Of a stretch of DNA of 64,000 nucleotides, positions 7,683 through 60,415 are shown one piece after another (positions within the stretch are counted from its first letter, which is position 1; each line of letters opens with the position of its first letter). The notes below the pieces were generated by a model, which saw nothing but the letters and a program-made list of their open reading frames with translations, ran no database searches and was not told where the DNA came from. This stretch comes from Saprospira sp. CCB-QB6 (GTDB lineage Bacteria; Bacteroidota; Bacteroidia; Chitinophagales; Saprospiraceae). Position numbers and translations under genes: made by a program. The DNA is taken from positions 2,497,501 through 2,561,500 of the forward strand of contig NZ_CP116808.1 in the NCBI RefSeq assembly GCF_028464065.1. Reading direction: 5' to 3'.

Positions 7683-8010
7683 AGAGCTAATCTGCAGATT
7701 ACAATTGGCGTTGGGAATTTCCCAGAGCTAATCTGCAGATTACAATTGGCGTTGGGAATTTCCCAGAGCTAATCTGCAGATTACAATTGGCGTTGGGAAT
7801 TTCCCAGAGCTAATCTGCAGATTACAATTGGCGTTGGGAATTTCCCAGAGCTAATCTGCAGATTACAATTGGCGTTGGGAATTTCCCAGAGCTAATCTGC
7901 GAATTACAATTGGCGTTGGGAATTTCCCAGAGCTAATCTGCAGATTACAATTGGCGTTGGGAATTTCCCAGAGCTAATCTGCAAATTACAATTAGCTTGG
8001 GGAGGGTGCA
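7683..8010. repeat. 41-bp tandem hairpin array A (8 units)
   Basis: Units start at 7683, 7724, 7765, 7806, 7847, 7888, 7929 and 7970, exactly 41 bp apart. Each unit holds the palindrome AATCTGCAGATT followed by ACAATTGGCGTT and the hairpin GGGAATTTCCC. The sixth and eighth units carry single changes in the first palindrome. The right edge joins a segment (GGAGGGTGCATAAGGCCC) that matches the junction of array C. The unit aligns to arrays B-D through ATCTGCA and ACAATT/ACATTT, but it is the most diverged. Confidence 0.95.
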
Positions 8011-8600
8011 TAAGGCCCTATCTTTTTTTCCTGGACCGACCCTACTACAAATCAGCTAGGCTCGCTTAGCAGCGAAATATTGGATAGGGTTGTATTTAAG
8101 CTCTTGTCGTTTTACCCTAGGGGCAAGCCCCTAGGCTAATAGTCATAGTCGCCCCCTCCTTCGAGGGGGCTTTTTGTTTGGCTCTATTGGTTAATTGGGC
8201 CCAGACGTAATTTTCTGTATTGGCCCTTAGGTACTAAGTTTATGTTTGAAGAGCAAGCGAATAATTGGTAGTTAAAGATTTTTTTTGCTTAACTGTTCAA
8301 GATCAGGAGGAAAGGCGAATCCCCTCGAAGGAGGGGATGATAGATTCTATAGCCTAGGGCCTTGGCCCTAGGGGGGAATTTATATCATATCGGCCTGTGG
8401 GTTGAAACCCACAGCAAAAAGGGAGGCCATGCTAGCCCTAATAAAATGGGCCGAAGGTTAAAACCTTCAGCCCATATACGTAGAGGAAAATAGCCAGTTC
8501 TAAGGCCAAAAGATTTAAATCAATGAGGGTTTTAACCCTCATTCTATAAAAACATTGCGAAGCAATAGCATCCTTGCTGTGGGTTTCAACCCACAGTATC
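8011..8600. repeat. Hairpin-string module, copy A
   Basis: About 590 bp with no ORF of coding quality but at least eight short palindromes: CCTAGGGGCAAGCCCCTAGG (8116), GCCCCCTCCTTCGAGGGGGC followed by TTTTT (8151), ATCCCCTCGAAGGAGGGGAT (8319), CCTAGGGCCTTGGCCCTAGG (8353), CTGTGGGTTGAAACCCACAG (8395), a GGGCCGAAGGTT/AACCTTCAGCCC stem (8448), ATGAGGGTTTTAACCCTCAT (8523) and CTGTGGGTTTCAACCCACAG (8577). The same order, reversed, is present at 28987-29604. The 8151 hairpin has the form of a rightward terminator. Confidence 0.9.
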
Positions 8601-8720
8601 GGCCTAGCGATGCGAAAGGGGGCGGCGGAGCCGCAGACCAAGGCCGTCAGGCCGCAGGGCCGAGCGAATAGCGAGCCCTGAAGCGTAGCGCCGACGAGCG
8701 TAGCGAGGCGGAGGCCCCAA
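8601..8720 (-). repeat. GC-rich dispersed element, copy 3
   Basis: Reverse orientation: starts GGCCTAGCGATG and ends GGCGGAGGCCCC. The central slot is GGCCGTCAGGCC. It closes the composite repeat (array A, module A) and abuts the 3' end of the following leftward gene. Confidence 0.85.
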
Positions 8721-8731
8721 AACAGCAAGAT

Positions 8732-10672
8732 TTAGCGCCAATTTTTCTTAATAAAAAGCCGTAATCGTTTGCATTGTTCGGCGGCGGCTGGCTGCTTGTT
8801 TTTTTGTTGTTGTTTGCGCCATTTATTCATATTGCGCAGTAGTTTGCGTTTAATTTTCCGCTGATAGGGGAGTTGGACAATCGTTGAGATGGCGGCCTCG
8901 AGATACTCGCTATGGGCTTGTTGTCGGTATTGCCAATCTAGGGCATAGCTGCGGCTAGCGGCCTTCCAAATGGCCAAAACATCTTGACTTTCTCGGCTTT
9001 GGCTCAGCCAATAATAGCATTGTCTGATAACGGAAAGGCTATCGCCTAGGGCGGCCAACTCCTCGATATTTTGTTCATAGTAGGCCAGTCCCTGAGCAAA
9101 ATTGCCTGCTCGGCAGGCCAGTCCCGCACGGCTCAGGCGGCACCAATGGCGAAGATCTTGAAAGCCGTATTGATCGGCTAAAGCCACCCAGCGATCGGCC
9201 CAGCGGTTGTAGTCTTCATTTTGGACCAAAGCGGGATAATAAGGGGCTTTGTTGTACCAGAGAATATACTCTGGGTAGAGGGCTTCATTGGGGGGATTTT
9301 GGAGATAGGGGCGGAGGTAGCGGCAAAAATAGTCCTCAAAATACTGATCGGCTTTTTCCCATTGGCCCATATTGCGGTATTTGGCCGAAAGGCTGAGGCC
9401 CATACTTTTGATGGTGGCGGTATCTTTTGTGCGTAGGGCTTGCTCGGTCCAATGCTCCAAAATCAGCAGAGAATCCGTCTGGCTAGGGGCATATTTTAGT
9501 TGGTAGGCATAGGGCAGATAGTGCTCCCATTGGAAGTAAAACTCATCTTGGCCCCAGCTTTCTAGATGCGTAAAAACCAGCTCTTCAAAGCAAGTCTGCA
9601 TAAAGTCGCGGGCATCGGCCTCTTGTTGGTAGAGGCGGCAAGTGCGGAGCAGATAGCTGCTGGCCTCTCTCCAGCGGGGTTTGGGGCAATACTTTTTGAG
9701 GTTTTTGTACCAGCTTTCGGCATAGGGCTTGGCCTCGGCCCAAGAATGCGACTCCATCATGGCCCAGCGGTAGGGCGAGCGGCTGGCATCCTCCCAAAGT
9801 TGGGGTAAATCGGCATTGGGCAGGTAAATATCCTCATAAAAAGCGATAGCGGGCTCCGGCTCCTCGAGTTGGATGAGCGTTTCCATGGCGCGCCAAAGTT
9901 GCACGGGCCGCAGGCGGTTCAAATCGCTTCTACCTACGGCTAAAATGCGTTTATAAAACTGAGAAAGCTGTTGATATTCTTCTAGGTCCTCATAGGTTTG
10001 GGCCAGTCGCCACTCTACATAATAAAGGGGATCATTGCGCTGCATTCTGATCTCAAAACAGCCTTCAAAATGATGTACGGCCTCCTCCAAATAATCTTCA
10101 TCAAAAAGGGCCATCCCCCAATGCGCTCGAATGCTAGCCTCATAATCTAGGGCATCTAGTTCAGGGGTTTCCTTGGCCCAAACAAGCAGGCTATCGCCAT
10201 AAGCATTAAAGTTTTGGATGCTGGGAAAGCGCTGTAGATAGGCCTCCCAATGCCATAAAAGCGTTTTTTTATCCCATTGCAGCATGCGCAGGAGTTCCGC
10301 ATCCAAATAATCTTGTTCGGCAGGACTTAGCCACTGTTTAAGGTAGTTGGCATAGGTCTTTGGGCGATGATAACAGACCGAAGATTCAAAGTCAGAAAGC
10401 AGTCGAATCGACAAAGCAGCCGAACTCAAAAGCTGAACATTGGATAATCCGAGCCGCTCAAGCTCCAACATCGACGCCCCCGCATGAATCAGGGCTTCCC
10501 AATCTACTTCACTGCAATAAACGGAACTTTGCCCCAGGCGAACAGACTGCAAAGGCTGGGCTTCGGCGCTTAGACTTAAAACTTTAGGGTCATCAGTCGG
10601 AAACTGATCTACTTTTTGGGCCTGTAGCGATAAAAAAAGTAGAAAAAAAGAGGACAAAAATAAATAACGCAT
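8732..10672 (-). CDS. Secreted TPR-like protein of unknown function
   Basis: 646 residues with an N-terminal signal peptide (MRYLFLSSFFLLFLSLQAQ). The rest is almost all helical and very rich in Trp, Tyr, Leu and Gln, with repeated ~34-residue helix pairs of TPR/Sel1-like spacing (for example ALFDEDYLEEAVHHFEGCFE and KYRNMGQWEKADQYFEDYF). The C-terminus ends in a basic helix (KRKIKRKLLRNMNKWRKQQQ). No catalytic motif is visible. It is probably a periplasmic scaffold or an orphan lineage-specific protein. The gene stands alone between a GC-rich repeat and the DUF3127 gene, with which it is divergent. Confidence 0.7.
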   Translation of the reverse strand: MRYLFLSSFFLLFLSLQAQKVDQFPTDDPKVLSLSAEAQPLQSVRLGQSSVYCSEVDWEALIHAGASMLELERLGLSNVQLLSSAALSIRLLSDFESSVCYHRPKTYANYLKQWLSPAEQDYLDAELLRMLQWDKKTLLWHWEAYLQRFPSIQNFNAYGDSLLVWAKETPELDALDYEASIRAHWGMALFDEDYLEEAVHHFEGCFEIRMQRNDPLYYVEWRLAQTYEDLEEYQQLSQFYKRILAVGRSDLNRLRPVQLWRAMETLIQLEEPEPAIAFYEDIYLPNADLPQLWEDASRSPYRWAMMESHSWAEAKPYAESWYKNLKKYCPKPRWREASSYLLRTCRLYQQEADARDFMQTCFEELVFTHLESWGQDEFYFQWEHYLPYAYQLKYAPSQTDSLLILEHWTEQALRTKDTATIKSMGLSLSAKYRNMGQWEKADQYFEDYFCRYLRPYLQNPPNEALYPEYILWYNKAPYYPALVQNEDYNRWADRWVALADQYGFQDLRHWCRLSRAGLACRAGNFAQGLAYYEQNIEELAALGDSLSVIRQCYYWLSQSRESQDVLAIWKAASRSYALDWQYRQQAHSEYLEAAISTIVQLPYQRKIKRKLLRNMNKWRKQQQKNKQPAAAEQCKRLRLFIKKNWR

Positions 10673-10694
10673 AGATTAATCGTTTTTATGGGCG

Positions 10695-10702
10695 TATCTT
10701 TG
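10695..10702 (+). promoter_or_regulatory. Candidate -7 box (TATCTTTG) for the DUF3127 gene
   Basis: Exact match to the Bacteroidota TAnnTTTG -7 consensus, 80 nt before the ATG at 10783. No good TTTG was found at the expected upstream distance, so the call is tentative. Confidence 0.35.
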
Positions 10703-10782
10703 GGCAAGCGGCTTGTCAAAATTACGGAAAATGCCGTTATTTGAGCACTTACTTTTTAGCGTAACAATTGAATCGAAATACT

Positions 10783-11148
10783 ATGGATGCCAATCTGATC
10801 TATGAAGGAAAGATCATTAAAATTGAAGATACTCAACAAGTCACAGACCGCTTTAAGAAGCGTGCCTTTGTTGTAGAAACAGACGAAAACTACTCACAGC
10901 TCATTCAAGCAGAACTTACACAGGAGAAATGCAGCTTGATTGACGACTATAAAGTTGGCGATGAGGTGCGTGTACATTTTAACATCCGTGGTCGCGAGTG
11001 GAATGGTCGTTATTTTACCAACCTCAACGCTTGGCGCCTAGAGCGTTTGGGCGCTCCTGCTGCCAATAACGCCCCCGTTGGCGATCTTCCTCCTCCTCCC
11101 GAAGAGGACACAGTAGGCGATGATTACGAAGATGATTTGCCCTTTTAA
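10783..11148 (+). CDS. DUF3127 family protein (OB-fold, SSB-like)
   Basis: 121 residues starting at ATG 10783 (MDANLIYEGKIIKIEDTQ); a TTG five codons upstream is less likely. The N-terminal ~90 residues match the Bacteroidota DUF3127 family: VTDRFKKRAFVVETDE, then QAELTQEKCSLIDDY, then VRVHFNIRGREWNGRYF and TNLNAWRLE. They are followed by an acidic tail (PPPPEEDTVGDDYEDDLPF) that recalls the acidic tip of single-stranded DNA-binding proteins ending in DDLPF. A role in binding nucleic acid and recruiting partners through the tail is an inference. It is monocistronic and ends in a strong terminator. Confidence 0.9.
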   Translation: MDANLIYEGKIIKIEDTQQVTDRFKKRAFVVETDENYSQLIQAELTQEKCSLIDDYKVGDEVRVHFNIRGREWNGRYFTNLNAWRLERLGAPAANNAPVGDLPPPPEEDTVGDDYEDDLPF

Positions 11149-11157
11149 TATAGAAAG

Positions 11158-11189
11158 AGACCTAGCTAGATTGGCTGGGTCTTTTTTTT
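11158..11189 (+). terminator. Rho-independent terminator of the DUF3127 gene
   Basis: Stem AGACCTAGC (11158-11166) pairs with GCTGGGTCT (11174-11182, one G-T pair), followed by seven T. The GC-rich element begins directly after the T-run. Confidence 0.85.
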
Positions 11190-11367
11190 GGGGCTGCCCC
11201 GCCTTTCAGGCGGGTCGGGCTGTTTACTTCGTCGAACTGGCGCCCCTTTGGGGCTGGTTGTCGCAGCTCGCTGATCGCTCGGCCCTGCGCCAGCAAGCTG
11301 GCTAGGTCTGGCGCTTCGCGCCACTGCTGTCCATCCCTCAGCCTGCGGCGGCTTCGCCGCCTGCTAG
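11190..11367 (+). repeat. GC-rich dispersed element, copy 4 (GGGGCTGCCCC type)
   Basis: Starts GGGGCTGCCCCGCC and contains CGGGTCGGGCTGT. The central slot hairpin is GCCAGCAAGCTGGC. It ends CCATCCCTCAGCCTGCGG plus a GGCGGCTTCGCCGCC hairpin and CTGCTAG. Confidence 0.85.
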
Positions 11368-11502
11368 ATGCAGAAGGGCCAAAAACTACAAAAAGATGAA
11401 TAGTAGCGATAAAAAAATTGTATAATCAAGCAGAGCATTGTATTTTGAGCCCAGTTTTTAACGCAGCCCAACGGAGTTAGGCTATAAACAGAAACAGCAA
11501 CT

Positions 11503-12489
11503 ATGGCAACAAGACAGATTCGTTTGCGCGATGCCTTGCGTGAAGCAATGGTAGAAGAGATGCGCCGAGATGAAAATGTATTCTTGATGGGCGAGGAAGT
11601 CGCTCAATATAATGGAGCATATAAGGTCAGCCAGGGCATGCTCGACGAATTTGGCGCAAAACGAGTAATTGATACGCCTATTGCAGAGTTAGGCTTTGCG
11701 GCTATTGGTACTGGGGCCGCTATGGCGGGTTTGCGTCCAATCGTAGAATTTATGACTTGGAACTTTGCGGTTTTGGCTTTTGACCAAATCGTCAACCATG
11801 CAGCAAAGATTTTGCATATGTCTGGCGGGCAGATTAAATGCCCCATCGTTTTCCGTGGCCCTTCTGGTGCTGCTGGACAATTGGCGCAGCAGCACTCTCA
11901 AACCTTTGAGAGCTGGATGGGCCAGGTTCCCGGCCTCAAAGTGATCTCTACCGTAGATCCCTATGATGCCAAAGGCCTTCTAAAAGCCGCTATTCGCGAT
12001 GAAGATCCAGTTTGTTTTATGGAGTCGGAATTGGCCTACTCGAATATGGGCGAAGTTCCCGAGGAGGAGTATATTCTTCCTATCGGTAAGGCGGCTGTCA
12101 AGCGAGAAGGAACCGATGTAACCATCGTTTCTTATAACAAAATGATGCTGGTGGCTCAAGCCGCTGCCGATGAATTGGCCAAAGAGGGCATCTCTGCGGA
12201 GGTAATCGATTTGAGAACTATTCGTCCTTTGGATATTGATACTATTGTAGCCTCTGTGAAAAAGACCAACCGCCTCGTTGTGGTCGATGAGTCTTGGCCT
12301 TATGCTTCTGTATCTTCAGAAATTGCTTATGTCATCCAGCGCCATGCTTTTGACTATCTAGATGCTCCCGTTATGCGGGTCAACTCTGCAGATACTTCTT
12401 TGGGCTATTCTTCTGTTTATGTAGATGAGTACATGCCCAATCCCGAGCGCGTAGTGAAAGCGGTAAAAGCCGTTCTGTACAAGCTCTAA
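11503..12489 (+). CDS. pdhB: Pyruvate dehydrogenase E1 component, beta subunit
   Basis: 328 residues, the normal length for the beta chain of heterotetrameric E1. With the alpha chain (not in this window) it decarboxylates pyruvate on thiamine diphosphate and passes the acetyl group to E2. The TPP-facing region shows NVFLMGEEVAQYNGAYKVSQG, with the conserved Glu, and DTPIAELGFAAIGTGAAMAG. The central MTWNFAVLAFDQIVNHAAK and GPSGAAGQLAQQHSQTFESW are family hallmarks. The C-terminal transketolase domain has VVVDESWPYASVSSEIAY. It is monocistronic with its own terminator. The annotation favours pyruvate over branched-chain substrates by overall similarity only. Confidence 0.93.
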   Translation: MATRQIRLRDALREAMVEEMRRDENVFLMGEEVAQYNGAYKVSQGMLDEFGAKRVIDTPIAELGFAAIGTGAAMAGLRPIVEFMTWNFAVLAFDQIVNHAAKILHMSGGQIKCPIVFRGPSGAAGQLAQQHSQTFESWMGQVPGLKVISTVDPYDAKGLLKAAIRDEDPVCFMESELAYSNMGEVPEEEYILPIGKAAVKREGTDVTIVSYNKMMLVAQAAADELAKEGISAEVIDLRTIRPLDIDTIVASVKKTNRLVVVDESWPYASVSSEIAYVIQRHAFDYLDAPVMRVNSADTSLGYSSVYVDEYMPNPERVVKAVKAVLYKL

Positions 12490-12517
12490 ACAAGACTACA
12501 ATTTGTAGATGAACTAT

Positions 12518-12544
12518 AAAGGCTCCCTAGGGAGCCTTTTTTTT
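12518..12544 (+). terminator. Rho-independent terminator of pdhB
   Basis: Palindrome AAAGGCTCCCTAGGGAGCC followed by an eight-T run, 30 bp after the stop codon. Confidence 0.88.
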
Positions 12545-12602
12545 AGCCGAAGTTTTCGCTTTCATCAAAAGCTTCCCTAACTTTCTAGAAAATACACTAG
12601 CT

Positions 12603-12992
12603 ATGAACTACCTCAAATCAAGTCTATTGTTGTTGGCCCTTTCGCTTTTTGTGGCCTGTAGTGGCAATAGCATCAATTATGCAGAAAAACTAGAAGGCAA
12701 ATGGGAATTGAGCAATGTGAGTGCTATTCTCAAAGCGGGATATGGCGGGAATTATGATTTTGAAGCCCTCAATGCGGCCTATCTCAAGTTTAATGCAGAT
12801 GGCCGCTACGAGAGCAAAATCGATCAGCTCGAAAATAAGGGCTATTGGGAAGTGGCCCAAGATGGCCGCTCTATCCAACTCAAAGCCGATAGCCTCCCCT
12901 TTGATGATAAACTAAAGCTTCGCTTCGAAAATGAGCGCAGCATTTTTATCTATAATAATGGTAAAGAGTATCAGTTTAAAAAGTTGAACTAA
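12603..12992 (+). CDS. Small lipoprotein, lipocalin-like (unknown function)
   Basis: 129 residues with a lipobox ending LALSLFVAC (Cys19) and CSGNS after it. The mature part looks like one small beta-barrel domain of the lipocalin-like DUF type common in Bacteroidota: LEGKWELSNV at the start, AYLKFNADGRYESKI, then KGYWEVAQDGRSIQLKAD, and a FIYNNGKEYQFKKL strand at the end. It is probably anchored in a membrane. It is a single gene, convergent with porD and sharing a terminator with it. Confidence 0.75.
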   Translation: MNYLKSSLLLLALSLFVACSGNSINYAEKLEGKWELSNVSAILKAGYGGNYDFEALNAAYLKFNADGRYESKIDQLENKGYWEVAQDGRSIQLKADSLPFDDKLKLRFENERSIFIYNNGKEYQFKKLN

Positions 12993-13000
12993 TGCAAGCA

Positions 13001-13037
13001 AAAAAAAGGGCTGCCGAATCTTCGGCAGCCCTTTTTG
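13001..13037. terminator. Bidirectional terminator between the lipoprotein gene and porD
   Basis: An 11-bp perfect stem GGGCTGCCGAA/TTCGGCAGCCC (13008-13031) is flanked by an A-run on the left and a T-run on the right, so it serves both convergent genes. Confidence 0.88.
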
Positions 13038-13047
13038 CATTTGGGCC

Positions 13048-13953: not shown

Positions 13954-13959
13954 ATTAGA

Positions 13960-15905: not shown

Positions 15906-16710
15906 TTCGCAATCTTTTTATTCGCTGCTTACTAATGTTAATCATACTACTAACCTCTGAGGCATAGCGGCTATCGCCATGTTTGCGCTCAAAGATTTTT
16001 GCTTTTTCTATCACCTCTTCAAAGCGTTCCGCTTGTTTAGACAAGATACTTTTTTCGGCATAGCCAAAAGAAGACTTGATAATCATGTAGCGGATATAGG
16101 GGGCTTCTTGAGTATCTGGGAAATCTAGCAAAAGGTTGTCAAAACTATGGACGGCGGCTTGGTAATGGCTGCGCTTGTAGTAGCCTTTGGCGGCCTCTAG
16201 CGCTTTGGTTTCCAATTTGGCCCGTAATAAATCAATTTGTTCGTTACACAGACTCACTCTATCGCTGAGGGGGTACATGTTGACAAAAAATTGATAACCT
16301 TCAATAGCTTCTTCGGTATCTTCTTGAGTCAGTCGAAAATTTGGTGATAATTTTCGGCTAGATTCGGCGGCCAAAAAGAGGGCTTCCTCTGCAAATTCAG
16401 AGTTGGGGAAGGTGTTGTAGAACTGGCGAAAATAATAAGAAGAGAAGGTAAAGTTTCTCATTCTATGGTGTGTACTCGCATAGTAGTAATACACCTTTTC
16501 TGCTTTTCCACTTCCCCGAACAAGGCCCATGAGGTCCTCTAAGAGGTATTGTGCTTTTTGGTAATCTCCGGCTTCGTAAAAGGCTACGGCTTTCTCATAG
16601 CGATAGTCGAGGTCGGGGTTCATCCGAATTTTATCAATGTTTTCCCTTTGGCAGGCAAAACTGAGGAGGATGAAGAGGAGGCTATAAAGGCCTACTTTTA
16701 GTTTTAACAT
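15898..16710 (-). CDS. bamD: Outer membrane assembly lipoprotein BamD
   Basis: 270 residues with lipobox LLSFAC (Cys20), so membrane anchored in the periplasm. TPR units follow: DYRYEKAVAFYEAGDYQKAQ, then VYYYYASTHHRMRNFTFSSYYF, FVNMYPLSDRVSLCNEQIDLL, and YYKRSHYQAAVHSFDNLLLDFPDT. These are the five-TPR layout of BamD, which works with BamA in inserting beta-barrels. The length fits. A CAAATATA sequence (TATATTTG on the minus strand) lies only about 6 nt before the start, so a very short leader is possible. Confidence 0.92.
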   Translation of the reverse strand: MLKLKVGLYSLLFILLSFACQRENIDKIRMNPDLDYRYEKAVAFYEAGDYQKAQYLLEDLMGLVRGSGKAEKVYYYYASTHHRMRNFTFSSYYFRQFYNTFPNSEFAEEALFLAAESSRKLSPNFRLTQEDTEEAIEGYQFFVNMYPLSDRVSLCNEQIDLLRAKLETKALEAAKGYYKRSHYQAAVHSFDNLLLDFPDTQEAPYIRYMIIKSSFGYAEKSILSKQAERFEEVIEKAKIFERKHGDSRYASEVSSMINISKQRIKRLRNE

Positions 16711-28853: not shown

Positions 28854-28986
28854 GGGGCCCGCGGCCAGCTAGCCTTTGGCTAGCTTGGCCGCCGCTATGC
28901 TGCGGGGCTCACAGGTCTGTTCGGCCCTTCAGCCGCCTGCGGCGGCTTCGGTCTGGCCTTCGGCCACCCCTCCGCAGCGCTGGGCC
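28854..28986 (+). repeat. GC-rich dispersed element, copy 9 (GGGGCCCGC variant)
   Basis: Starts GGGGCCCGCGGCC with the hairpin CTAGCCTTTGGCTAG. The central slot is GCCGCCTGCGGCGGC. It ends GCAGCGCTGGGCC, the variant end shared with copy 16. Confidence 0.85.
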
Positions 28987-29604
28987 AATTCTGTGGGTTG
29001 ACACCCACAGTAAATGCGGTATTGCTTCGCAATCTTTTATAGAATGAGGGGAAAACCCCTTCATTAAGCTAACCCTTTTGGCCTTTTATCTATCTCGTCT
29101 TAGTTAATTGCCCCTTTTCTAGTTATGGGCTGAAGGGTTTAGCCTTCGGCCCATTTTATTAGGGCTTGCATGGCCGCCCTTTTTGCTGTGGGTTTCAACC
29201 CACAGGTCGATAGGATATAAATTTTACCCCTAGGGCCAAGGCCCTAGGCTATAGAATCTGTCATCCCCTCCTGCGAGGGGATTTGTCTTTACCCCTGAGC
29301 TTTAACAGTTAAGCAAACAAGATCTTCAATAAACTGCTTTCTCTTGCTCTTCAAACATAAGATTTAGGACCTAAGGAGCCAATACAGAAAATGCCGTCTG
29401 GGCCTAGTTGATCAATAGTGCTAAACAAAAAGCCCCCTCGAAGGAGGGGGCGACTATGACTATTAGCCTAGGGGCTTGCCCCTAGGGTAAAATGACAAGG
29501 GCTTAAATACAACCGCATCCAATATTTCGCTGCTAAGCCAAGCTAGCTAATTTGTAATAGGGGCGGTCCAGAAAAAAAATATAGGGCCTTAGACAGCTCC
29601 CCCT
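28987..29604. repeat. Hairpin-string module, copy B (inverted relative to copy A)
   Basis: Reversed and complemented it follows the order of 8011-8600: CTGTGGGTTG/CACCCACAG stem, ATTGCTTCGCAAT, GAGGGGAAAACCCCTT, a GGGCTGAAGGG/CCTTCGGCCC stem, CTGTGGGTTTCAACCCACAG (29190), CCTAGGGCCAAGGCCCTAGG (29234), ATCCCCTCCTGCGAGGGGAT (29263), GCCCCCTCGAAGGAGGGGGC and CCTAGGGGCTTGCCCCTAGG. The intervening sequence is similar but diverged, while the stems keep complementarity. It contains no credible ORF. Confidence 0.9.
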
Positions 29605-30048
29605 AGCTAAATGTAACGATACGGATGCCTCTGGCTTGGGGCCGGAGCTAAATGTAAGGATACAGATGCCTCTGGCTTGGGGCCGGAGCTAAATGTAACG
29701 ATGCAGACGCCTCTGGCCTGGGGCCGGAGCTAAATGTAACGATACAGACGCCTCTGGCCTGGGGCCAGAGCTAAATGTATTGATGCAGATGCCTCTGGCT
29801 TGGGGCCGGAGCTAAATGTAAGGATGCAGATGGCTGTGGCGCAACGCCACAGTTAAATGTAAAGATGCAGATGGCTGTGGCGCAACGCCACAGTTAAATG
29901 TAAGGATGCAGATGGCTGTGGCGCAACGCCACAGTTAAATGTAAAGATGCAGACGGCTGTGGCGCAACGCCACAGTTAAATGTAAAGATGCAGACGGCTG
30001 TGGCGCAACGCCACAGTTAAATGTAAAGATGCAGATGGCTGTGGCTTG
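29605..30048. repeat. 41-bp tandem hairpin array B (11 units)
   Basis: Units start every 41 bp from 29605 to 30015. The constant part reads AGCTAAATGTAA followed by GATGCAGATG-like bases. The first six units carry a CTCTGGC/GCCGGAG or GCCAGAG hairpin; the last five carry the perfect CTGTGGCGCAACGCCACAG. The switch is abrupt at about 29840. Confidence 0.95.
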
Positions 30049-30076
30049 CTGGAATTTAGTAGCTCCATATATCCAT

Positions 30077-39900: not shown

Positions 39901-40155
39901 GGGGCTGCCCCTTCCGCCGGGTTGAAACCCAGCGCAAAGCGGTATCGCTTTGCGAAGCTATACAAAATGAGGGTTGAAACCCTCATGAATTATCGGTCGG
40001 GTCGGGCTGTTTACTTCGTCGAACTGGCGCCCCTGCGGGGCTGGTTGTCGCAGCTCGCTGATCGCTCGGCCCTTCGGCGCTTTCAGCGCCTCGGTCTGGC
40101 GCCTGCGGCGGCCCTGCTGTCCATCCCTCAGCCTGCGGGCCTTCGGCCCTCTAGG
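39901..40155 (+). repeat. GC-rich dispersed element, copy 13, interrupted by hairpin-module units
   Basis: The GGGGCTGCCCC start (39901) is separated from CGGGTCGGGCTGT by ~80 bp. Those bases hold GGGTTGAAACCC, an AAGCGGTATCGCTTTG stem and GAGGGTTGAAACCCTC, units found elsewhere in modules A and B. The rest is normal: the TTTACTTCGTCGAACTGG segment, central slot GGCGCTTTCAGCGCC and end CCATCCCTCAGCCTGCGG. Confidence 0.85.
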
Positions 40156-40242
40156 GTGGATATGTGGACCTGTGAGTTTTAAGCCGCAGTCAGATGAGGA
40201 GCTCATAAGCCCATCCTTTATTGTTTTAGGGCTTGCAGCTTA

Positions 40243-40570
40243 AAGGCCAGAGGCATCTGCATTGATACATTTAGCTCCGGGGATTCCCCAGAGGCGTCTG
40301 CATCGTTACATTTAGCTCCGGGGATTCCCCAGAGGCATCTGTATCGTTACATTTAGCTCCGGGGATTCCCCAGAGGCGTCTGCATCGTTACATTTAGCTA
40401 GGGGGAATCCCCCAAGGCATCTGCATCGATACATTTAGCTAGGGGGAATCCCCCAAGGCATCTGCATCGATACATTTAGCTAGGGGGAATCCCCCAAGGC
40501 ATCTGCATTGATACATTTAGCTAGGGGGAATCCCCCAAGACATCTGCATTGATACATTTAGCTAGGGGGA
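40243..40570. repeat. 41-bp tandem hairpin array C (8 units)
   Basis: Units lie exactly 41 bp apart (ATCTGCAT-type core at 40254 through 40541). The first three carry the hairpin GGGGATTCCCC flanked by CTCC/AGAG; the remaining units carry GGGGGAATCCCCC. The constant core reads catctgcatcgatacattta (lower case marks variable use of cat/cgt and gat/gtt). Confidence 0.95.
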
Positions 40571-40998
40571 GCTGTATAAGGCCCTATCTTTTTTTTATGG
40601 ACTTGACCTACTACAAGTTAGCTAGCTTGGCTTAGAATTGAAATTTTGGATGCGTTCGTATTTTTTGTCTAAGATGCTGCAGCCTAAAGGCCGCAGCCAA
40701 TCTTGTTGGGCCATCATTTTTCTCGCCGCAGGAGCTTAAAAGCCCCTGCTTCCATGATAGAAAACAGGGGCTTAAGTTTTTCAGGTCTTGTGGCTTTTAA
40801 GCTGCAAGCCATGAGACAATAAAAAGCTAGCTAATTGGGGTCTAATCTGGCTACGGGTTTTAACCCGCAGGTTTATATATCCATCCTACAGGCCCTAGGG
40901 GGGGGAATTTATATCCTTTTTGCTGTGGGTTGAAACCCACAGCAAAAAGGAAGGCCATACAAAACCTAATAAAGAGGGCCGAAGGCCCTTCGGCCCTC
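40571..40998. repeat. Hairpin-string module, copy C (shorter, diverged)
   Basis: Begins with the same junction as copy A (TATAAGGCCCTATC then a T-run and GGAC). It has GCTTAAAAGCCCC and CGGGTTTTAACCCG type stems, CTGTGGGTTGAAACCCACAG (40923-40942) and a GAGGGCCGAA/TTCGGCCCTC stem (40974-40998). The last stem is followed on the minus strand by TTTATT and could end the leftward gene at 41004. Large parts of modules A and B are missing and replaced by sequence that pairs with itself. Confidence 0.82.
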
Positions 40999-52164: not shown

Positions 52165-52178
52165 TGTGATTCTATTTT

Positions 52179-53555: not shown

Positions 53556-53587
53556 ACTAACTTCTTTAAGCAAGAATTTTTCGAAGA

Positions 53588-53645: not shown

Positions 53646-53723
53646 AGGGGAAGCTCAGCCGTATCTGATTGGGCCAATTTATAGCCATAGTTAGGCAGAA
53701 TAAAGCCCAAAAAATAAAAAATT

Positions 53724-54617: not shown

Positions 54618-54707
54618 GTAGTAGATTTGCAGCCCAATATGTTGGGGACCACCCAATATGAATTAAGAATTTTAACTTTTATTTAATTTTATAAAAAACT
54701 AACGCCT

Positions 54708-54803
54708 ATGCCATGTGGAAAAAAGCGTAAGAGACATAAGATTGCTACGCACAAAAGAAAGAAGCGCCTTCGTAAAAACCGTCACAAGAAGAAGAAGAAA
54801 TAA
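54708..54803 (+). CDS. 31-residue AURKAIP1/COX24-domain protein (mS38-like ribosomal protein)
   Basis: A very short gene, ATG at 54708 to TAA at 54801-54803. It encodes a basic peptide that starts MPCGKKRKRHKIATHKRKKR and goes on with a second block of Lys, Arg and His to a five-Lys end. It matches the small Bacteroidota family related to mitochondrial AURKAIP1/COX24 (mS38), a small-subunit ribosomal protein. It lies 90 bp after the TPR gene. A terminator about 90 bp later separates it from rng. Easily missed because of its size, but the family match is clear. Confidence 0.82.
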   Translation: MPCGKKRKRHKIATHKRKKRLRKNRHKKKKK

Positions 54804-54890
54804 TTTCTTTTTGTAGATGGATGGGCATGCTTCCTATCTATATAGAATTGTTGGCTAGTCTGCATACAGACTTTGCCTCACCAATATTTA

Positions 54891-54926
54891 GGGTAAGCTG
54901 GCTTTGTTCAACTTACCCTTTTTTTG
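54891..54926 (+). terminator. Rho-independent terminator after the small ribosomal-type gene
   Basis: GGGTAAG (54891-54897) pairs with CTTACCC around a GCTTTGTTC loop, then seven T. It ends the TPR/mS38 transcript. Confidence 0.82.
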
Positions 54927-55217
54927 TTGGCTCCACCGCCTAAGGAGCCGCAAAAATGACCACCCCTACCTGAGTGGTCCTACTGCCCGCCTTAATTAGC
55001 TGTTTGTTTATTTAAGCCTTACTCATAAAAATATCGTTTTTTATGAGCCTTTTATATATCTGGTCAAGCCACAAAAGAGTGACTGGCCTGCATCGAATTT
55101 TGCTCTAAACCCTCATTTAGAGCCTTGCTTTTTATCAAACAGAACGCCTTATGGGCTAAAAGCTTCCTGGCCAAACCTTGGCAAAAAAGAAGGGGAAGTC
55201 AATAAATATATATCATT
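54927..55217 (+). promoter_or_regulatory. Structured leader region of rng
   Basis: About 290 bp with no ORF of coding type but three clear hairpins: GACCAC/GTGGTC (54958-54979), CTCATAAAAA/TTTTTATGAG (55022-55047) and GCTCTAAA/TTTAGAGC (55102-55123). An RNase-E-like enzyme often regulates its own mRNA through such a leader, so autoregulation is a plausible inference. The transcription start is unknown. Confidence 0.55.
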
Positions 55218-56780
55218 TTGGAAAAAGAGTTAATCATCAGCTCGGGGGGCAAAGACACGAGAATTGCCCTACTTGAGGATAAAAAACTGGTGGAGCTCCA
55301 CTATCAAAAAACAGTCAATAGTTTGGCTGTTGGAGACATCTACCTTGGCCGAGTGAGCAAATTGCTGCCTGGCCTCAATGCGGCCTTTGTCAATATTGGC
55401 CAAAAAGGCAAAGATGCCTTTTTACACTATACCGACCTCGGTCCAAAACTTCGCTCGCTAATTAAATATTCTAATGGAGCAATTAGCGGAGGACAAGAAA
55501 GCCATCTACTCGATAATTTTAAGATGGAAGCCGATATCCCCAAAATGCCAAAGGGGAAAATTACTAATGTATTGAAGAAGGGCCAACTCATTATGGTCCA
55601 AGTACTCAAAGAACCTATCTCTACTAAAGGTCCCCGCCTCTGCTGTGAGGTAACTATCGCTAGCCGATATTTGGTCCTTAACCCCTTTAGCGAAACGATT
55701 GCCGTTTCTAAGAAAATCCAATCGGATGATGAACGCAACCGCCTAAAGGTCCTGATCGAAAGCCTACGTCCCAAAAACTTTGGCTTTATTGTACGCACTG
55801 CCGCTGAAGGCCGTAAAGTTGCCGATCTACATGAGGATATCCAACAACTGATGGCCAAATGGGAAGAGATCTATAAGCAGATGCACAATGCTAAAGGTCC
55901 CGTTAAGTGCCTGAGTGAACTGAACAAAACCCAAACGCTCATTCGCGATTTCTGGAATGATGACTATAGTCGTGTTATTGTAGATGATGAAGCCATTTAT
56001 GATGATGTAGTAGAAGAACTAAACAAGGTAACCGATGGCAAAAAGGATTTAGCAAAGCTGTATAACGGCCAACGTCCTTTATTTGACCAATACGGAATTA
56101 CCCGCCAAATTAAAGCTTCCTTTGGCAAAACAGCCACTATGTCAAGCGGAGCCTATATCGTTTTGGAACATACGGAGGCCATGCATGTGGTGGATGTGAA
56201 TAGTGGGCATAAAATGAGCAGCAATGATCAAGAAAAAAATGCCCTGCGCGTTAACCTAGAAGCCGCCGAAGAAGTCGCCCGCCAACTCCGACTCCGAGAT
56301 ATTGGAGGGATTATTATTATCGACTTTATTGATATGCGGCAGGCGCCTCACCGTAATGAGCTCTTTCAGCATATGCGAAATGCGATGAGTAACGATAAGG
56401 CGAAGCATACTATTTTGCCCCTGAGCAAGTTTGGTCTGATGCAAATTACCCGCGAGCGAGTGCGCCCTCAGGTGAATATCCAAACGACGGAAACTTGTCC
56501 TAGTTGCCAAGGAACGGGCAAGGTTCAACCTACTTTGCTCATCACAGACGATATCAAAAGAGATTTGGATTTTGTGATGAAGTCGCAAAAACCGAATAAG
56601 GTGACTTTATTGGTCCACCCTTTTGTTCAAGCCTATATCAAAAAAGGCTGGTTGCACAATCTGCAGATTAAATGGTGGAGAGAATACAAAAAATGGATTA
56701 ATGTGCGGGCCGACAATAACCTGCCCATTACTTCCTATAAGTTGTATAATGAAACGAATGACGAGATTCGTCTAAGCTAA
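55218..56780 (+). CDS. rng: Ribonuclease G/E
   Basis: 520 residues. It starts with TTG at 55218: an in-frame stop lies at 55203-55205, no ATG lies between, and the residues (EKELIISSGGKDTRIALLED) align with the known N-terminus of the family. The S1 domain (~35-130) has SLAVGDIYLGRVSKLLPGLNAAFV. The RNase-E/G catalytic part shows GFIVRTAAEG, SGAYIVLEHTEAMHVVDVNSG, the metal-binding Asp in GGIIIIDFIDM, and the Zn-link CPSCQGTGKV. It processes rRNA and decays mRNA. A bidirectional-looking terminator follows it directly. Confidence 0.94.
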   Translation: MEKELIISSGGKDTRIALLEDKKLVELHYQKTVNSLAVGDIYLGRVSKLLPGLNAAFVNIGQKGKDAFLHYTDLGPKLRSLIKYSNGAISGGQESHLLDNFKMEADIPKMPKGKITNVLKKGQLIMVQVLKEPISTKGPRLCCEVTIASRYLVLNPFSETIAVSKKIQSDDERNRLKVLIESLRPKNFGFIVRTAAEGRKVADLHEDIQQLMAKWEEIYKQMHNAKGPVKCLSELNKTQTLIRDFWNDDYSRVIVDDEAIYDDVVEELNKVTDGKKDLAKLYNGQRPLFDQYGITRQIKASFGKTATMSSGAYIVLEHTEAMHVVDVNSGHKMSSNDQEKNALRVNLEAAEEVARQLRLRDIGGIIIIDFIDMRQAPHRNELFQHMRNAMSNDKAKHTILPLSKFGLMQITRERVRPQVNIQTTETCPSCQGTGKVQPTLLITDDIKRDLDFVMKSQKPNKVTLLVHPFVQAYIKKGWLHNLQIKWWREYKKWINVRADNNLPITSYKLYNETNDEIRLS

Positions 56781-56782
56781 TA

Positions 56783-56816
56783 AAAAAGGCCTCAGCATTT
56801 GCTGAGGCCTTTTTTG
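56783..56816. terminator. Terminator of rng
   Basis: GGCCTCAGC (56788-56796) pairs with GCTGAGGCC (56801-56809), with an A-run left and seven T right. Confidence 0.88.
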
Positions 56817-56864
56817 TTGAGGGCCGAAGCCGCTTGGCTAAAAAGCAAAGCCTGAAGGGGGAGC

Positions 56865-56987
56865 GGCCTAGCGATGTGTAGGGGTGGCCGTAGGCCAGAC
56901 CCAGGCGGCAAAGCCGCCGCAGGGCCGAGCAGGCTTGCGAGCCCCGAAACGTAGCGCCGCAAGGCGAAGCCGCAGCGGAGGCCCCAA
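56865..56987 (-). repeat. GC-rich dispersed element, copy 18
   Basis: Reverse orientation, GGCCTAGCGATG to GGAGGCCCC. The central slot is GGCGGCAAAGCCGCC, the same stem as copy 11. Confidence 0.85.
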
Positions 56988-56995
56988 AATAGCCC

Positions 56996-58156
56996 CTATT
57001 TTTCAGGTATTTCGATCAATAATTCATCAAAGGCCTCTACCATGGCGGGCCAAGCATAACGTTTTTTAGCGGCTTGTAAATAGCTTTTGAATAGATCATT
57101 TTTGTCGTACTCAAAAAACTGCAAAATGGCATCGGCTACGGCCTTGGGGTTTTCGGGGGGGACCACATAACCAGCCTTGCCATGCGGCACGATCTCGGGC
57201 AAACCGCCCACCTCCGTGACCAACATGGGGCGCTCAAAATGATAGGCCAATTGCGAAATTCCGCTTTGGGTTGCGCGGCGATAAGGCTGCACCACCAAAT
57301 CGGCAGCGCTAAAAAATAGGCCTACCTCTTCTTCTGGAATAAAGTCGTTGTACAATTTTAAACGATCGCCCAGTTGCAGGCGCTCGATTTGTTGCCGAAA
57401 GGGGGCCTCATCCTCATAAAACTCCCCCGCCACCAAGGCCTTGATATTGTATTGGGCCAGACGAGGATCGCCCAAGGCCTCTAGCAAAATATCCAGCCCT
57501 TTATACTGCCGAATGAAGCCAAAAAAGAGCAAATACTTACCCTGAGGATCCAATTTCAACTGCGCTCTAGCCTCTTCTTTGGGCAATAAAGGCCCATAAC
57601 TGTCATAGACGGGATGCGGATGAAAATGCGCTGGCCGAGGCGCAGGCAAAAACTCTTTTATGTCTTGGACCACCTTTTTAGATAAGGCCATAAAGCCATC
57701 TAAAGGCCCCACAAAATAGCGATTGAAAAGCGCATCGCCTGGGCGGCTTTCGTGGGGAATGAGGTTGTGGACCAAGCCCAGTAGTTTGGTGTTGGGCGAG
57801 AATTTTTTGACCAGCCGCAAAACTGTCCCAAAACTAGGGCCCATAAAGGGCAGCCAATAAGAGACAATCAGGACATCGGGCTGGCTTTTGGCAATCTTTC
57901 GGCCCACACTCCACCAATTAAAAGGATTGATGGAGTTGAGGCAAACCTCAATATCCAAATCAGGCGCTTTGGCCGTAGAAAACTGGCTTTTGCCCGGAAA
58001 CAAAAAGCTGGGATACTGTAAACTAAAGCTATAAATCTTTACCTCTCGGCCCTCTTCTATAAAGGCCTTGGCGAGTCGCTCATTAAAAGCGGCCAGCCCG
58101 CCCCGAAGGGGGTGGGCTGGCCCAAGAATGGCAATTTTTTCTGCTTGCTTTATCAT
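56996..58156 (-). CDS. Glycosyltransferase family 4 enzyme
   Basis: 386 residues from the ATG at 58156 (MIKQAEKIAILGPAHPLRGG); the in-frame extension upstream overlaps the preceding gene and is unlikely. A GT-B fold is present: an N-terminal Rossmann domain with the glycine-rich GPAHPLRGGLAAFNERL, and a C-terminal nucleotide-sugar domain with LLFFGFIRQYKGLDILLEAL, then FSAADLVVQPYRRATQSGISQLAYHF and the EVGGLPEIVPHGKAGYVVPPEN motif. It retains sugar configuration. The acceptor is unknown, perhaps a surface polysaccharide. It lies 2 bp after the HhH gene, so they are co-transcribed. Confidence 0.92.
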   Translation of the reverse strand: MIKQAEKIAILGPAHPLRGGLAAFNERLAKAFIEEGREVKIYSFSLQYPSFLFPGKSQFSTAKAPDLDIEVCLNSINPFNWWSVGRKIAKSQPDVLIVSYWLPFMGPSFGTVLRLVKKFSPNTKLLGLVHNLIPHESRPGDALFNRYFVGPLDGFMALSKKVVQDIKEFLPAPRPAHFHPHPVYDSYGPLLPKEEARAQLKLDPQGKYLLFFGFIRQYKGLDILLEALGDPRLAQYNIKALVAGEFYEDEAPFRQQIERLQLGDRLKLYNDFIPEEEVGLFFSAADLVVQPYRRATQSGISQLAYHFERPMLVTEVGGLPEIVPHGKAGYVVPPENPKAVADAILQFFEYDKNDLFKSYLQAAKKRYAWPAMVEAFDELLIEIPEK

Positions 58157-58158
58157 GA

Positions 58159-58623
58159 TTAAGATTCGGCGATGAATTTTTTGGCTTGCTCTTGCCAATT
58201 GTAACGCTCTAGGCGATTTTGAAAGCCCGAGATTTTCTCATCGAGCTGGCTAATTTCTTCGGCACTGAGCGCCGCCAATTGCTGAAAACTATGAATGCCC
58301 TCTGCCGCTAGGCTTTCCGACATGACCTGACCAATGCCTTTAATTTGACAAAGGTCATCTTTGGCCGCAGCCTCTTCTTTGGGGGGAGTGGCCGCTTCTG
58401 TTTCTGCAACTTCTTCTTGGGGGGGAGCTTGCTGCTGCTCTGCCAATTGATCCAAACGCTTAGCTAAAACATCAGAAAGCTCATCAATGCGGCTTTCAAG
58501 GGTTTCTAGACGATCTTCAAGATGTCCATAAACACGATGCTCAAACTTTTGGAAAAGGTCCTCCATTTTCTCATAACGCTTCTGGAGATCCTTTCTAATC
58601 ATTTTTTTGGCCTTTTTAAACAT
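58159..58623 (-). CDS. Coiled-coil protein with helix-hairpin-helix domain
   Basis: 154 residues. Residues 1-70 are a long amphipathic coiled coil (KRYEKMEDLFQKFEHRVYGHLEDRL), then an acidic Gln/Pro/Glu linker (70-90). A C-terminal helix-hairpin-helix domain (~92-150) reads DDLCQIKGIGQVMSESLAAEGIHSFQQLA and ISGFQNRLERYNWQEQAKKF. This form of HhH is related to the one often misnamed as L21 or NADH dehydrogenase subunit E tails, and it probably mediates protein or nucleic-acid contacts. Co-transcribed with the glycosyltransferase and perhaps the barrel gene. Confidence 0.8.
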   Translation of the reverse strand: MFKKAKKMIRKDLQKRYEKMEDLFQKFEHRVYGHLEDRLETLESRIDELSDVLAKRLDQLAEQQQAPPQEEVAETEAATPPKEEAAAKDDLCQIKGIGQVMSESLAAEGIHSFQQLAALSAEEISQLDEKISGFQNRLERYNWQEQAKKFIAES

Positions 58624-58644
58624 GGGATTTTTGGTTTTTGAGGC

Positions 58645-59538
58645 CTAAAACTGCAAACCGACAAAAATCTGCAAGCTGAAGTTGCGGTCAAAATCATCTC
58701 GCAAAATGAAGTTGCGGTTATCGTCTAGAGCCTGTTGTTCTATATCATAATTATTATTCGTTATATCTAGGAGACCATAATAGGCTCTAGCCCCTACGCG
58801 CAACCCTTTCGTAAAGTAGTAAGATGCGCCAAAGTTGAGGCCCATATCAAAGTAGCGATAGGCCGGACCATCCTTTTTATCAAAGAAATAATAACCGCCC
58901 AAATCCGCAGGATAAGTAATGCTGCGCTGGTCCAATTGCCCCGTTCTCGTAAAATCACTATTGAGCTCGCCAGCCGCATCCCGCAAATAACTATGATCCA
59001 AATTGATCTCTACAAAGTCATCGCCTAAGCTGCTGCCCTCACTCAAGTCTCCATACTTTAATATACCTAATCCTCTGGAAGAGACCAAAAAAGAAAAGCT
59101 CGGACCAAAATCTAATTGCACTTTATCCTTAATCGGACGCACATAAAACAAGATCGGAACCTCTACATAACCATTGGTAATATTGACCGATTTTACTCTC
59201 GTTTGTCCCTCAAACGTCTCATTGAGCGAGGGAATACTGAGGTAAGCATTATCCGCCTCAAACCGATAACGACTCCCCCGCTGAGAAAATCCCAGCTCCG
59301 CAGCCAAACCAATATAATCATTGATCGGAACCTCCACGGTGGCCGAAATATGCACCTTGGTCGTCCAACTATAACCATCCAGACTTTCCCCCTGGGCATT
59401 CTCTTCCGCAGGCCCCATAATGGTCCCAATATTAGCCCCCGCCTTAAATCCAAAGCGAGCATCAATTTGCGCAAATAAGGCAGTCGAAAAAGCACTGCCC
59501 AAAAAACAGCATAACAGTAAGAAGTTTTTCATGATCAT
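58645..59538 (-). CDS. PorT-like outer membrane beta-barrel protein
   Basis: 297 residues with signal peptide MIMKNFLLLCCFLGSAFSTALFAQ (start at 59538 or the next Met, 59532). It is an eight-strand-type barrel: RFGFKAGANIGTI, PINDYIGLAAELGFSQRGSRY, VKSVNITNGYVEVPILFYVRPIKDKVQLDFGPSFSFL, and a final NFSLQIFVGLQF with the terminal aromatic residue of outer membrane proteins. This is the layout of the PorT family of Bacteroidota, but the role in T9SS is not shown for this paralog. It has 21 bp to the HhH gene, so it likely leads that operon. Confidence 0.85.
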   Translation of the reverse strand: MIMKNFLLLCCFLGSAFSTALFAQIDARFGFKAGANIGTIMGPAEENAQGESLDGYSWTTKVHISATVEVPINDYIGLAAELGFSQRGSRYRFEADNAYLSIPSLNETFEGQTRVKSVNITNGYVEVPILFYVRPIKDKVQLDFGPSFSFLVSSRGLGILKYGDLSEGSSLGDDFVEINLDHSYLRDAAGELNSDFTRTGQLDQRSITYPADLGGYYFFDKKDGPAYRYFDMGLNFGASYYFTKGLRVGARAYYGLLDITNNNYDIEQQALDDNRNFILRDDFDRNFSLQIFVGLQF

Positions 59539-59627
59539 GATTTTAGTTTAGGACCCTAAAGGTACTGCGAACAGATTTAAAATAGAATTTTTTTATAAAA
59601 GGCCTATTGCTTTCCCTTTTTTGATTT

Positions 59628-59769
59628 GGGGCTGCCCCTCGCTTCGCTCAGGTCGGGCCATTCCGCAGCTCGCTATTCGCTCGGCCCTGCGCGGGCTGCG
59701 CCCGCTGGGTCTGCCGCCTTCGGCGGCCCTGCTCCAGCCCCTCAGCCTGCGGGCCTTCGGCCCTCTAGG
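59628..59769 (+). repeat. GC-rich dispersed element, copy 19 (GGGGCTGCCCC type)
   Basis: The central slot is GCGGGCTGCGCCCGC. It ends CCCTCAGCCTGCGGGCC with the CCTTCGGCC hairpin and CTCTAGGATGGATATATGG, the same flank as array C. It leads into array D after ~90 bp. Confidence 0.85.
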
Positions 59770-59859
59770 ATGGATATATGGACCTGCAGCTTGCAACCCA
59801 CAACCAGATGAGGGGCCTATAAGCCCCCATTTTATTATCCCATATTTTATAGCTTAAAC

Positions 59860-60415
59860 GCCACAGTCGTCTGCATTGATACATTTAGCTGTGGCGTTGC
59901 GCCACAGTCGTCTGCATTGATACATTTAGCTGTGGCGTTGCGCCACAGTCGTCTGCATTGATACATTTAGCTGTGGCGTTGCGCCACAGTCGTCTGCATC
60001 CTTACATTTAGCTGTGGCGTTGCGCCACAGTCATCTGCATCCTTACATTTAGCTGTGGCGTTGCGCCACAGTCGTCTGCATCCTTACATTTAGCTGTGGC
60101 GTTGCGCCACAGTCATCTGCATCCTTACATTTAGCTGTGGCGTTGCGCCACAGTCGTCTGCATCGTTACATTTAGCTAGGGGGAATCCCCCAAGGCGTCT
60201 GCATCCTTACATTTAGCTAGGGGGAATCCCCCAAGGCGTCTGCATCGATACATTTAGCTAGGGGGATTCCCCCAAGGCATCTGCATCAATACATTTAACT
60301 AGGGGGATACCCCCAAGGCATCTGCATCCTTACATTTAGCTAGGGGGATTCCCCCAAGGCGTCTGCATCGATACATTTAACTAGGGGGAATCCCCCAAGG
60401 CATCTGCATCCTTAC
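59860..60415. repeat. 41-bp tandem hairpin array D (14 units)
   Basis: The largest array. The TCTGCAT core repeats from 59870 to 60403 at exactly 41-bp steps. The first seven inter-core segments carry CTGTGGCGTTGCGCCACAG and the last six carry GGGGGAATCCCCC or GGGGGATTCCCCC stems, so two hairpin types stand side by side. It ends at TTACAGGACC next to a terminator. Confidence 0.95.

Follow-up and report, generated by a model that had tools for sequence, protein, structure and literature searches.

Tandem 41/42-bp repeat arrays and a linked protein family on Saprospirales chromosomes

Iteron–Rep plasmid origins carry helix-phased direct repeats just 5′ of the gene for a cognate protein, and in type III toxin–antitoxin systems (ToxIN-like) each protein has its own type of tandem repeat array, located 5′ of the gene. 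Here we describe tandem repeats with a unit of 41 or 42 bp in Saprospira sp. CCB-QB6, and a protein family whose gene adjoins such arrays. The starting point was a 64,000-nucleotide window (the whole stretch of DNA analysed; C1:2497501–2561500 of the 4.24-Mb genome, G000), which contains four arrays, A to D, all of them orphans, that is, without the linked gene (Table 1). We think it moderately probable that arrays and gene form a two-part chromosomal system of the Saprospirales, in which a cognate protein is paired with a helically phased recognition array and further, orphan arrays lie in trans. A third related system comprises repetitive extragenic palindromes (REP), bacterial interspersed mosaic elements (BIME) and the REP-associated tyrosine transposases (RAYT), described in an excerpt of PMC2817692 as short intergenic palindromes with many chromosomal copies, in tandem in BIME-2, together with a linked gene that has coevolved with the repeat.

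The Saprospira arrays resemble REP/BIME in being palindromic intergenic units in many copies: all 29 arrays of at least three units in the window genome sit between open reading frames (ORFs) of at least 150 aa, four of them overlapping short ORFs (89–126 aa). They differ in that all units are in direct orientation, the period is 41/42 bp and the linked gene belongs to an unrelated family. The REP tag, GTAG or CTAC, occurs in none of 236 units of the core family F1 (CGTC lies near the right foot in 80 of the 236), and none of five stretches around Y1_Tnp genes (three in the window genome and two in strain WHT, about 1 kb on each side) holds an array. An identity with RAYT/REP was rejected on these grounds, although the Y1_Tnp control is weak because for two of the five genes (L139 and L140) there is an array at a distance of about 1.3 kb, with the linked gene in between (L148 and L156). 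Y1_Tnp is also present in two other Saprospira genomes, G003 and G004, in which no array was found. As in iteron–Rep origins, direct repeats about four turns long adjoin the gene for a putative cognate protein of similar size, with phasing suggested by unit length; the Saprospira arrays differ in being chromosomal and multi-copy, with orphans and four-turn units, and no replication initiator domain was recognised (no match in Pfam, NCBIfam or PDB). The tandem array 5′ of a gene recalls type III toxin–antitoxin systems, from which it is set apart by the orphan arrays, by a promoter-like stretch separating the array from its gene and by a near-fixed length of 41/42 bp; no known endoribonuclease family was matched (two proteins in Pfam/NCBIfam, 22 in PADLOC). 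The system would work in part like REP–RAYT (a protein with dispersed repeats) and in part like iteron–Rep (phased repeats 5′ of a gene). Because the defining features of these two that were examined are absent, we regard it as new as a kind, and hold its mechanism at moderate confidence. Nothing recognised as these arrays was found in the open-access library searched, and the excerpts of the main text of PMC3733652 and PMC12306157 do not mention Saprospira.

Array–gene linkage, position and period

A search of array flanks identified one and the same gene beside several arrays. This link was invisible to an earlier reading of the window from its letters (the sequence-only reading), because the window holds no copy of the gene. 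There are nine copies in G000, three in S. grandis DSM 2844 (G001), nine in S. grandis Lewin (G002, NC_016940.1; one in two pieces) and four in strain WHT (G005); none was found in G003 (63% complete) or G004 (90% complete). An array accompanies 24 of these 25 copies and is always 5′ of the gene, at a distance of 111–382 bp except at L154 (512 bp), L153 (545 or 138 bp, the gene being in two open pieces) and L149 (1,525 bp). At L149 (1..4901; Lewin gene at 3993176), the approximately 1.5 kb between array and gene contain a 398-aa ORF on the opposite strand and look like a later insertion. In strain WHT gene and array are present twice, at L157 (G005:2826000-2831000) and again at L158 (G005:642800-647100); the two are 93% identical in the DNA beside the array, and Lewin and DSM 2844 have one such close match each.

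The linkage extends beyond the genus. A profile search, with at most five candidates scored per genome, placed the family in 30 of 396 Saprospirales genomes and 12 of 164 genera, with 26 of the genomes outside Saprospira. At the best locus of each of these 26, a 41/42-bp array was present in 15, of which 13 were strictly 5′, one 3′ and one on both sides, and the array-positive loci span five families (f1, f8, f12, f16 and f20). Among 11 of these arrays that were printed, no sequence was seen in common with the Saprospira arrays. Control DNA (400 kb of other sequence from five outside genomes) yielded four arrays of period 42 or 21, two of them the 21-bp arrays of L207; six further rows had periods in the range 59–192 (multiples of 21 in L207 uncounted). 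At this control density the binomial probability of 15 of 26 is about 3e-21, a value that ignores clustering of genes and arrays. The three array-bearing control stretches contain no homologue of the linked protein at E 1e-3. In the genome G263, of another genus, 21-bp arrays, half of a 42-bp unit, lie at L207:2923-3196 and 16456-16598 in a 20-kb stretch without a homologue, and 42-bp arrays lie at L203:11511-11864 and L206:6450-6639 (G169, another genus) in 20-kb stretches that likewise lack one; orphan arrays may occur outside Saprospira too.

The period was examined in two ways. At loci fetched by protein and scanned for periods of 20–119, arrays of 41, 42 or 83 bp were found at 18 of 19; three of the 19 were known before, and 15 of the 16 blind loci had an array. 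An open scan covered lags 15–199 in the 5′ sequence (2 kb at most) of 51 gene copies. A periodic stretch was detected in 38; the strongest lag was 41 in 18 and 42 in 12, and in seven it was 82, 83, 84, 167 or 168, values that are multiples of 41 or 42 or mixtures of the two. Within the genus the strongest lags were 41 (12 copies), 42 (8), 83 (2), 167 (1), 196 (1) and none (1); outside it they were 41 (6), 42 (4), 84 (2), 82 (1), 168 (1) and none (12). The value of 196 comes from L148, where a separate 196-bp repeat outscores the copy's own 41-bp array. The open scan bears out the length restriction. Many gene-linked arrays have unit sequences unlike those of families F1 to F4.

The linked protein is about 325 aa long (range about 320–335) and consists of an N-terminal part of about 220 aa and a swappable C-terminal part of about 90 aa. 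Two members scanned gave no match in Pfam or NCBIfam, and the family profile none in PDB (best E 0.16). For 22 members, PADLOC returned weak models only (two single-member matches and no type III endoribonuclease), and so did PHROG (best E 0.0004, in three of the 22, to a model of unknown function). One query protein had no relative among 72,556 plasmid records or in a phage collection. A conserved partner gene was rejected, the largest recurring neighbour group being present at 4 of 44 gene loci. In two genomes a Y1 transposase gene (IS200-like) lies 84 bp (L148, 1445–1921) and 188 bp (L156) downstream of the linked gene, and at L169 an ORF related to Y1 transposase lies 813 bp upstream of it.

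Most of the 13 gene copies from the genus that were printed have a promoter-like TTGACA..TATAAC between array and gene, which fits an upstream control region. The conserved form TTGACAtt..TATAACGTta follows a AAAAGTTATA motif in L120, L148, L040, L157, L150, L155 and others; in L155 it is part of a long inverted repeat, and it is less clear in L117, L144 and L146.

Unit anatomy, hairpins and turnover

Over all parsed arrays, with a spacing above 130 bp taken as an array end, 500 of 529 unit spacings are 41 bp, 27 are 42 bp and two are 40 bp. (L060 yielded no unit, and L035, L037, L068, L087, L094 and L096 one each; that of L096 is chance-like and counts as zero in the flank comparison below.) The length of 41/42 bp is close to four turns of B-DNA, and the unit consists of two halves of about two helical turns each, either of which is replaceable. 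In F1 these are a core half and a 19-nt palindrome half. Across 116 F1 units of the window genome, core positions 3, 4, 6, 7 and 11–18 have zero entropy and positions 5 and 8–10 vary, and in the hairpin positions 22, 23, 26–32, 35 and 36 vary while 21, 24, 25, 33, 34, 37 and 38 are invariant. Relative to F2, F1 has one base more in the core and one fewer in the remainder, so that both total 41. The distance from one dyad centre to the next is 20.5 bp in F1, F3 and F4, and about 20/21 bp in F2; a second dyad half a period away was dropped as a general trait, being clear in F4, weaker in F1, F2 and F3, and mixed outside the genus. Composite arrays, with F1 units followed by F2 units, also occur.

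The sequence-only reading had described a constant unit length with a swappable palindromic half and had asked whether stem changes covary, and both points are borne out. Compensating changes keep the pairing: Watson–Crick stem cells make up 85.7% in 131 unique units versus 68.6% (maximum 71.6%) after shuffling, and double changes occur at four stem pairs in the same units; kinship among the units inflates counts of this kind. The same reading had set the arrays apart from clustered regularly interspaced short palindromic repeats (CRISPR) and from simple REP, correctly so: they share with CRISPR tandem arrays with palindromic parts, but there are no unique spacers, whole units being repeated, and there is no fixed REP tag. 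Its interpretation stood for length, swappable palindrome, pairing and occurrence in relatives, but not for its proposal that selection or a copying mechanism acts on the hairpin. A GC-rich hairpin of the window type is unseen in most of the 11 printed arrays from other genera, and in the gene-linked pair L145/L155 it is the hairpin half that is constant and the other half that is swapped. It is not the hairpin but the 41/42-bp length and the association with the protein family that are constant throughout.

The hairpins also bear on whether the arrays act as RNA. In an RNA-based pair resembling type III toxin–antitoxin systems, transcribed hairpin units would bind or restrain the protein; a tandem array 5′ of the gene, a cognate sequence for each paralogue and the covarying hairpin pairs speak for it, and four three-unit stretches, folded as single-stranded DNA on both strands (DNA parameters), fold better than the shuffle mean (z −1.2 to −6.0). 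We nevertheless judge such a pair quite improbable. With the promoter-like stretch between the two in most genus copies printed, transcription of the gene need not pass through the array; the length is held at 41/42 bp although RNA would need no helical phasing; in most of the 11 printed arrays of other genera no GC-rich hairpin is visible; and Pfam and NCBIfam give no known toxin family, PADLOC adding its two weak single-member matches. Stem mismatches (71 A.C and 21 G.T) favour neither strand cleanly, a mixed signal on which strand-specific RNA pairing, sought from wobble pairs, was rejected.

Arrays of this kind are numerous. The F1 pattern, at up to two mismatches, has 143 matches in the window genome, where arrays of at least three units number 13 for F1, 11 for F2 and five for F3; with six gene-linked arrays and four orphans of the L145 family the total is at least 39. 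The possibility that the period is confined to the four window loci, raised by the sequence-only reading against itself, is contradicted by these many further loci, and its proposed search of related genomes also succeeded: among 60 related genomes (own included), arrays with the core TCTGGATNNNTACATTTARC and a 41-bp period are present in three further Saprospira genomes (Lewin, DSM 2844 and WHT), the others having 0–7 scattered matches each. DNA queries for F1, the tail, F2 and F4 had no match in G003 or G004. The tail module found beside arrays (Table 1) led to arrays with other cores, F2 and F3 in the window genome and F4 in S. grandis. With one genome per GTDB species (the own genome possibly excluded), Lewin and DSM 2844 were the only genomes to show the exact tail pattern, and viral contigs gave no exact match to it. 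A bias towards convergent gene pairs was suggestive only and was set aside (11 convergent and 4 divergent gaps versus 6 and 10 in the background; Fisher p 0.07).

Comparison of flanks separates what is stable from what is not. Four F1 loci are common to all three S. grandis strains, and three of the four have counterparts in the window genome, by both flanks (L120 and L098) or one (L123). All 37 S. grandis loci with units flank-match another strain (a few may be repeats, for example L075), and some match the window genome too. At two loci with flanks 85–95% identical, F2 in the window species stands against F4 in S. grandis (L111 with L072/L093; L115 with L080/L097); between strains whose flanks are about 97% identical, the hairpin has been replaced throughout the array (L040 versus L044, L072 versus L093); and one orthologous locus has seven recognised units (L079) versus one and one (L094 and L087). 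Position and length are therefore stable, whereas sequence turns over in concert.

Such turnover would suit neutral palindromic minisatellites, made and kept by slippage and template switching and linked to the gene incidentally. The unit-number differences and whole-array hairpin replacements are of this kind, stems can be restored by template switching (according to an excerpt of PMC8794818), and two loop inversions that keep the stem would need three substitutions each (CCA/TGG in L086, TTT/AAA in L062). As proof of template switching the inversions were rejected, since these are the only two three-step cases and the others fit one substitution. The neutral explanation was already disfavoured, and we consider it very unlikely: it leaves unexplained the gene link with its 5′ position across five families, the restriction to 41/42 bp, and the zero-entropy core positions beside variable ones.

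Cognate pairing and candidate mechanism

Proteins and units diverge together. Over 561 non-independent pairs, unit similarity and protein identity have a Spearman correlation of 0.35; mean unit similarity is 0.74 at 80% protein identity or more (19 pairs) and 0.45–0.50 below 60%, compared with 0.44 for shuffled units. Of 49 gene copies, 34 were kept for this comparison (double-period, 3′-side and array-less copies were dropped), and the 19 units of 41 bp and 15 of 42 bp in it are on their own no proof of length, because only lags 41, 42 and 82–84 were offered.

The part of the protein that matters is suggested by L148. Its N-terminal part is 93% identical to that of L120 and its C-terminal part 53%, the latter being 79–81% identical to those of L117 and L150; its array is F1, as in L120. 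Judged by these identities L148 is a natural domain swap, in which, as a single case, the array family follows the N-terminal part. The C-terminal part is absent in L146, L154 and L160, and arrays are still present there.

Orphans accompany the linked arrays. For all four families tested (F1, F3, F4 and L145/L155), the linked array has same-family orphans elsewhere in the genome. In the L145/L155 class, the gene-bearing genomes G000 and G002 each have one linked and four orphan arrays; in G001 and G005, where the gene was not found, there is one match of 39–40 bp each. In WHT a single match of unit size, around 1363443, is close to where the counterpart of a Lewin orphan array (1423067-1423503) would be expected.

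A gene-linked master with same-family orphans could also be a selfish element of REP/RAYT type, with a protein that makes or spreads arrays, an autonomous linked array and non-autonomous orphan offspring. The common dispersed tail beside many orphans points the same way, as do the second copy of gene and array in WHT only (L158 beside L157), terminator-like sites within 300 bp to the left of 9 of 29 arrays (a raw count, with no background rate) and the location of two of the seven Y1_Tnp genes of array-bearing genomes about 1.3 kb from an array (L148 and L156). We rate such an element as rather unlikely. The positions are old, as the flank matches of the 37 S. grandis loci attest; the linked protein has no transposase, nuclease or other known domain; and the one query protein has no relative among the plasmids and phages searched.

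In the two-part system that we favour, binding and function of the protein are inferred. The N-terminal part, or a partner recruited by it, would recognise the unit as DNA, and the constant unit length would place each site on the same side of the double helix as the one before. Autoregulation would act through the array next to the gene; the orphans, those of the window among them, would provide binding sites around the chromosome. Unequal exchange and conversion would alter the arrays, with hairpin pairing kept by selection, template switching or both.

Several observations weigh against this proposal. On average the N-terminal part is close to neutral (pI 5.5–9.5 and net charge −5 to +9 in the genus) and the C-terminal part is acidic, so nucleic-acid binding is not obvious, and a structure prediction from two near-identical sequences reached a mean predicted local distance difference test score (pLDDT) of 38. 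The sole genus copy without an array is a truncated gene, L147. Outside the genus, 11 of the 26 loci have no array at the threshold used, among them every f3 locus (three) and the single f14 locus, two of the 11 having just 123 and 331 bp of 5′ sequence; the control DNA, in turn, contains orphan-like arrays without the gene. The proteins of L149, L150 and L156 are 95–96% identical, with a unit similarity of just 0.57–0.81. The comparison of gene absence with array absence covers one class, L145/L155, and F2 (11 arrays in the window genome, including array A) has no gene-linked member among the nine copies.

More tentatively, and at somewhat less than even odds, the arrays may represent an undescribed chromosome system akin to eukaryotic satellite DNA and its binding protein, in which each paralogue reads its own satellite. 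Four helical turns would fix the length of the unit but leave its sequence free to vary; the system would tag dozens of chromosomal sites, with a role in the organisation of the nucleoid, in segregation or in regulation; and over time a protein and its satellites would be exchanged as a set. If true, this would be a bacterial pairing of satellite DNA and protein with one matched array type per paralogue. It would offer many natural protein–DNA pairs of differing specificity, a domain swap made by nature and strains that have lost the gene; it would account for a large class of the repeats between genes in these genomes and provide a bacterial model for the concerted evolution of repeats with binding proteins. 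Even a selfish element would be a new gene-plus-repeat pair without a known enzyme.

The four arrays of the window

The four arrays, with 8, 11, 8 and 14 units at a period of 41 bp as the sequence-only reading had counted them, were recovered both by Tandem Repeats Finder (TRF) and by reading unit by unit (Table 1). Among lags 10–199, only 41, 82, 123 and 164 pass a 70% self-match in 80-base windows, and TRF returned seven rows in the real window versus two in total from 20 shuffled copies (dinucleotide blocks permuted).

Table 1. Arrays and tail modules in the window (positions are those of the window)
Feature	Position	Strand	TRF interval, period 41	Description
Array A	7682..8001	+	7680-8001	8 units x 41 bp; core family F2 (TGCARATTACAATTRRC); hairpin TGGGAATTTCCCA; orphan
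Tail module right of array A	8005..8140	+		CTATCTTTTTTT..CTGGACC..CCCTACTAC...; conserved, dispersed in genome
Array B	29605..30055	-	29605-30048	11 units x 41 bp; core family F1; two hairpin types; orphan
Array B tail module	29462..29591	-		G000:2526962-2527091, minus
Array C	40247..40574	+	40247-40570	8 units x 41 bp; family F1; two hairpin types; orphan
Array C tail module	40573..40663	+		G000:2538073-2538163, plus
Array D	59862..60416	+	59859-60379	13 full units and 1 truncated (final); family F1; two hairpin types; orphan

The core that had been called nearly fixed in B, C and D is so, as TCTGYATNNNTACATTTARC, apart from a variable central triplet; array A has a core of its own, TCTGCAGATTACAATT. 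The statement that the remainder almost always forms a perfect hairpin is fair, because a central stem of 4 bp or more pairs perfectly around a 3-base loop in 34 of 37 junction hairpins (A 7/7, B 7/10, C 7/7, D 13/13), all three exceptions being in B. Rfam gave no match within the window. The tail of array A has at least 35 matches in the window genome (among the best 40 of 78 candidates), mostly adjoining arrays; for array D no tail was among the matches listed. Array C is flanked by a 187-aa ORF on one side and by gldN on the other.

A second, far commoner GC-rich palindromic repeat (GGGGCTGCCCCTCGCTTCGCTC...) fills intergenic DNA, for example at 28860–28990, 40000–40160 and 59625–59790 of the window. 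A flank query containing a stretch of this type returned more than 1,150 loose first-look candidates, 40 of them scored, in each of four genomes.

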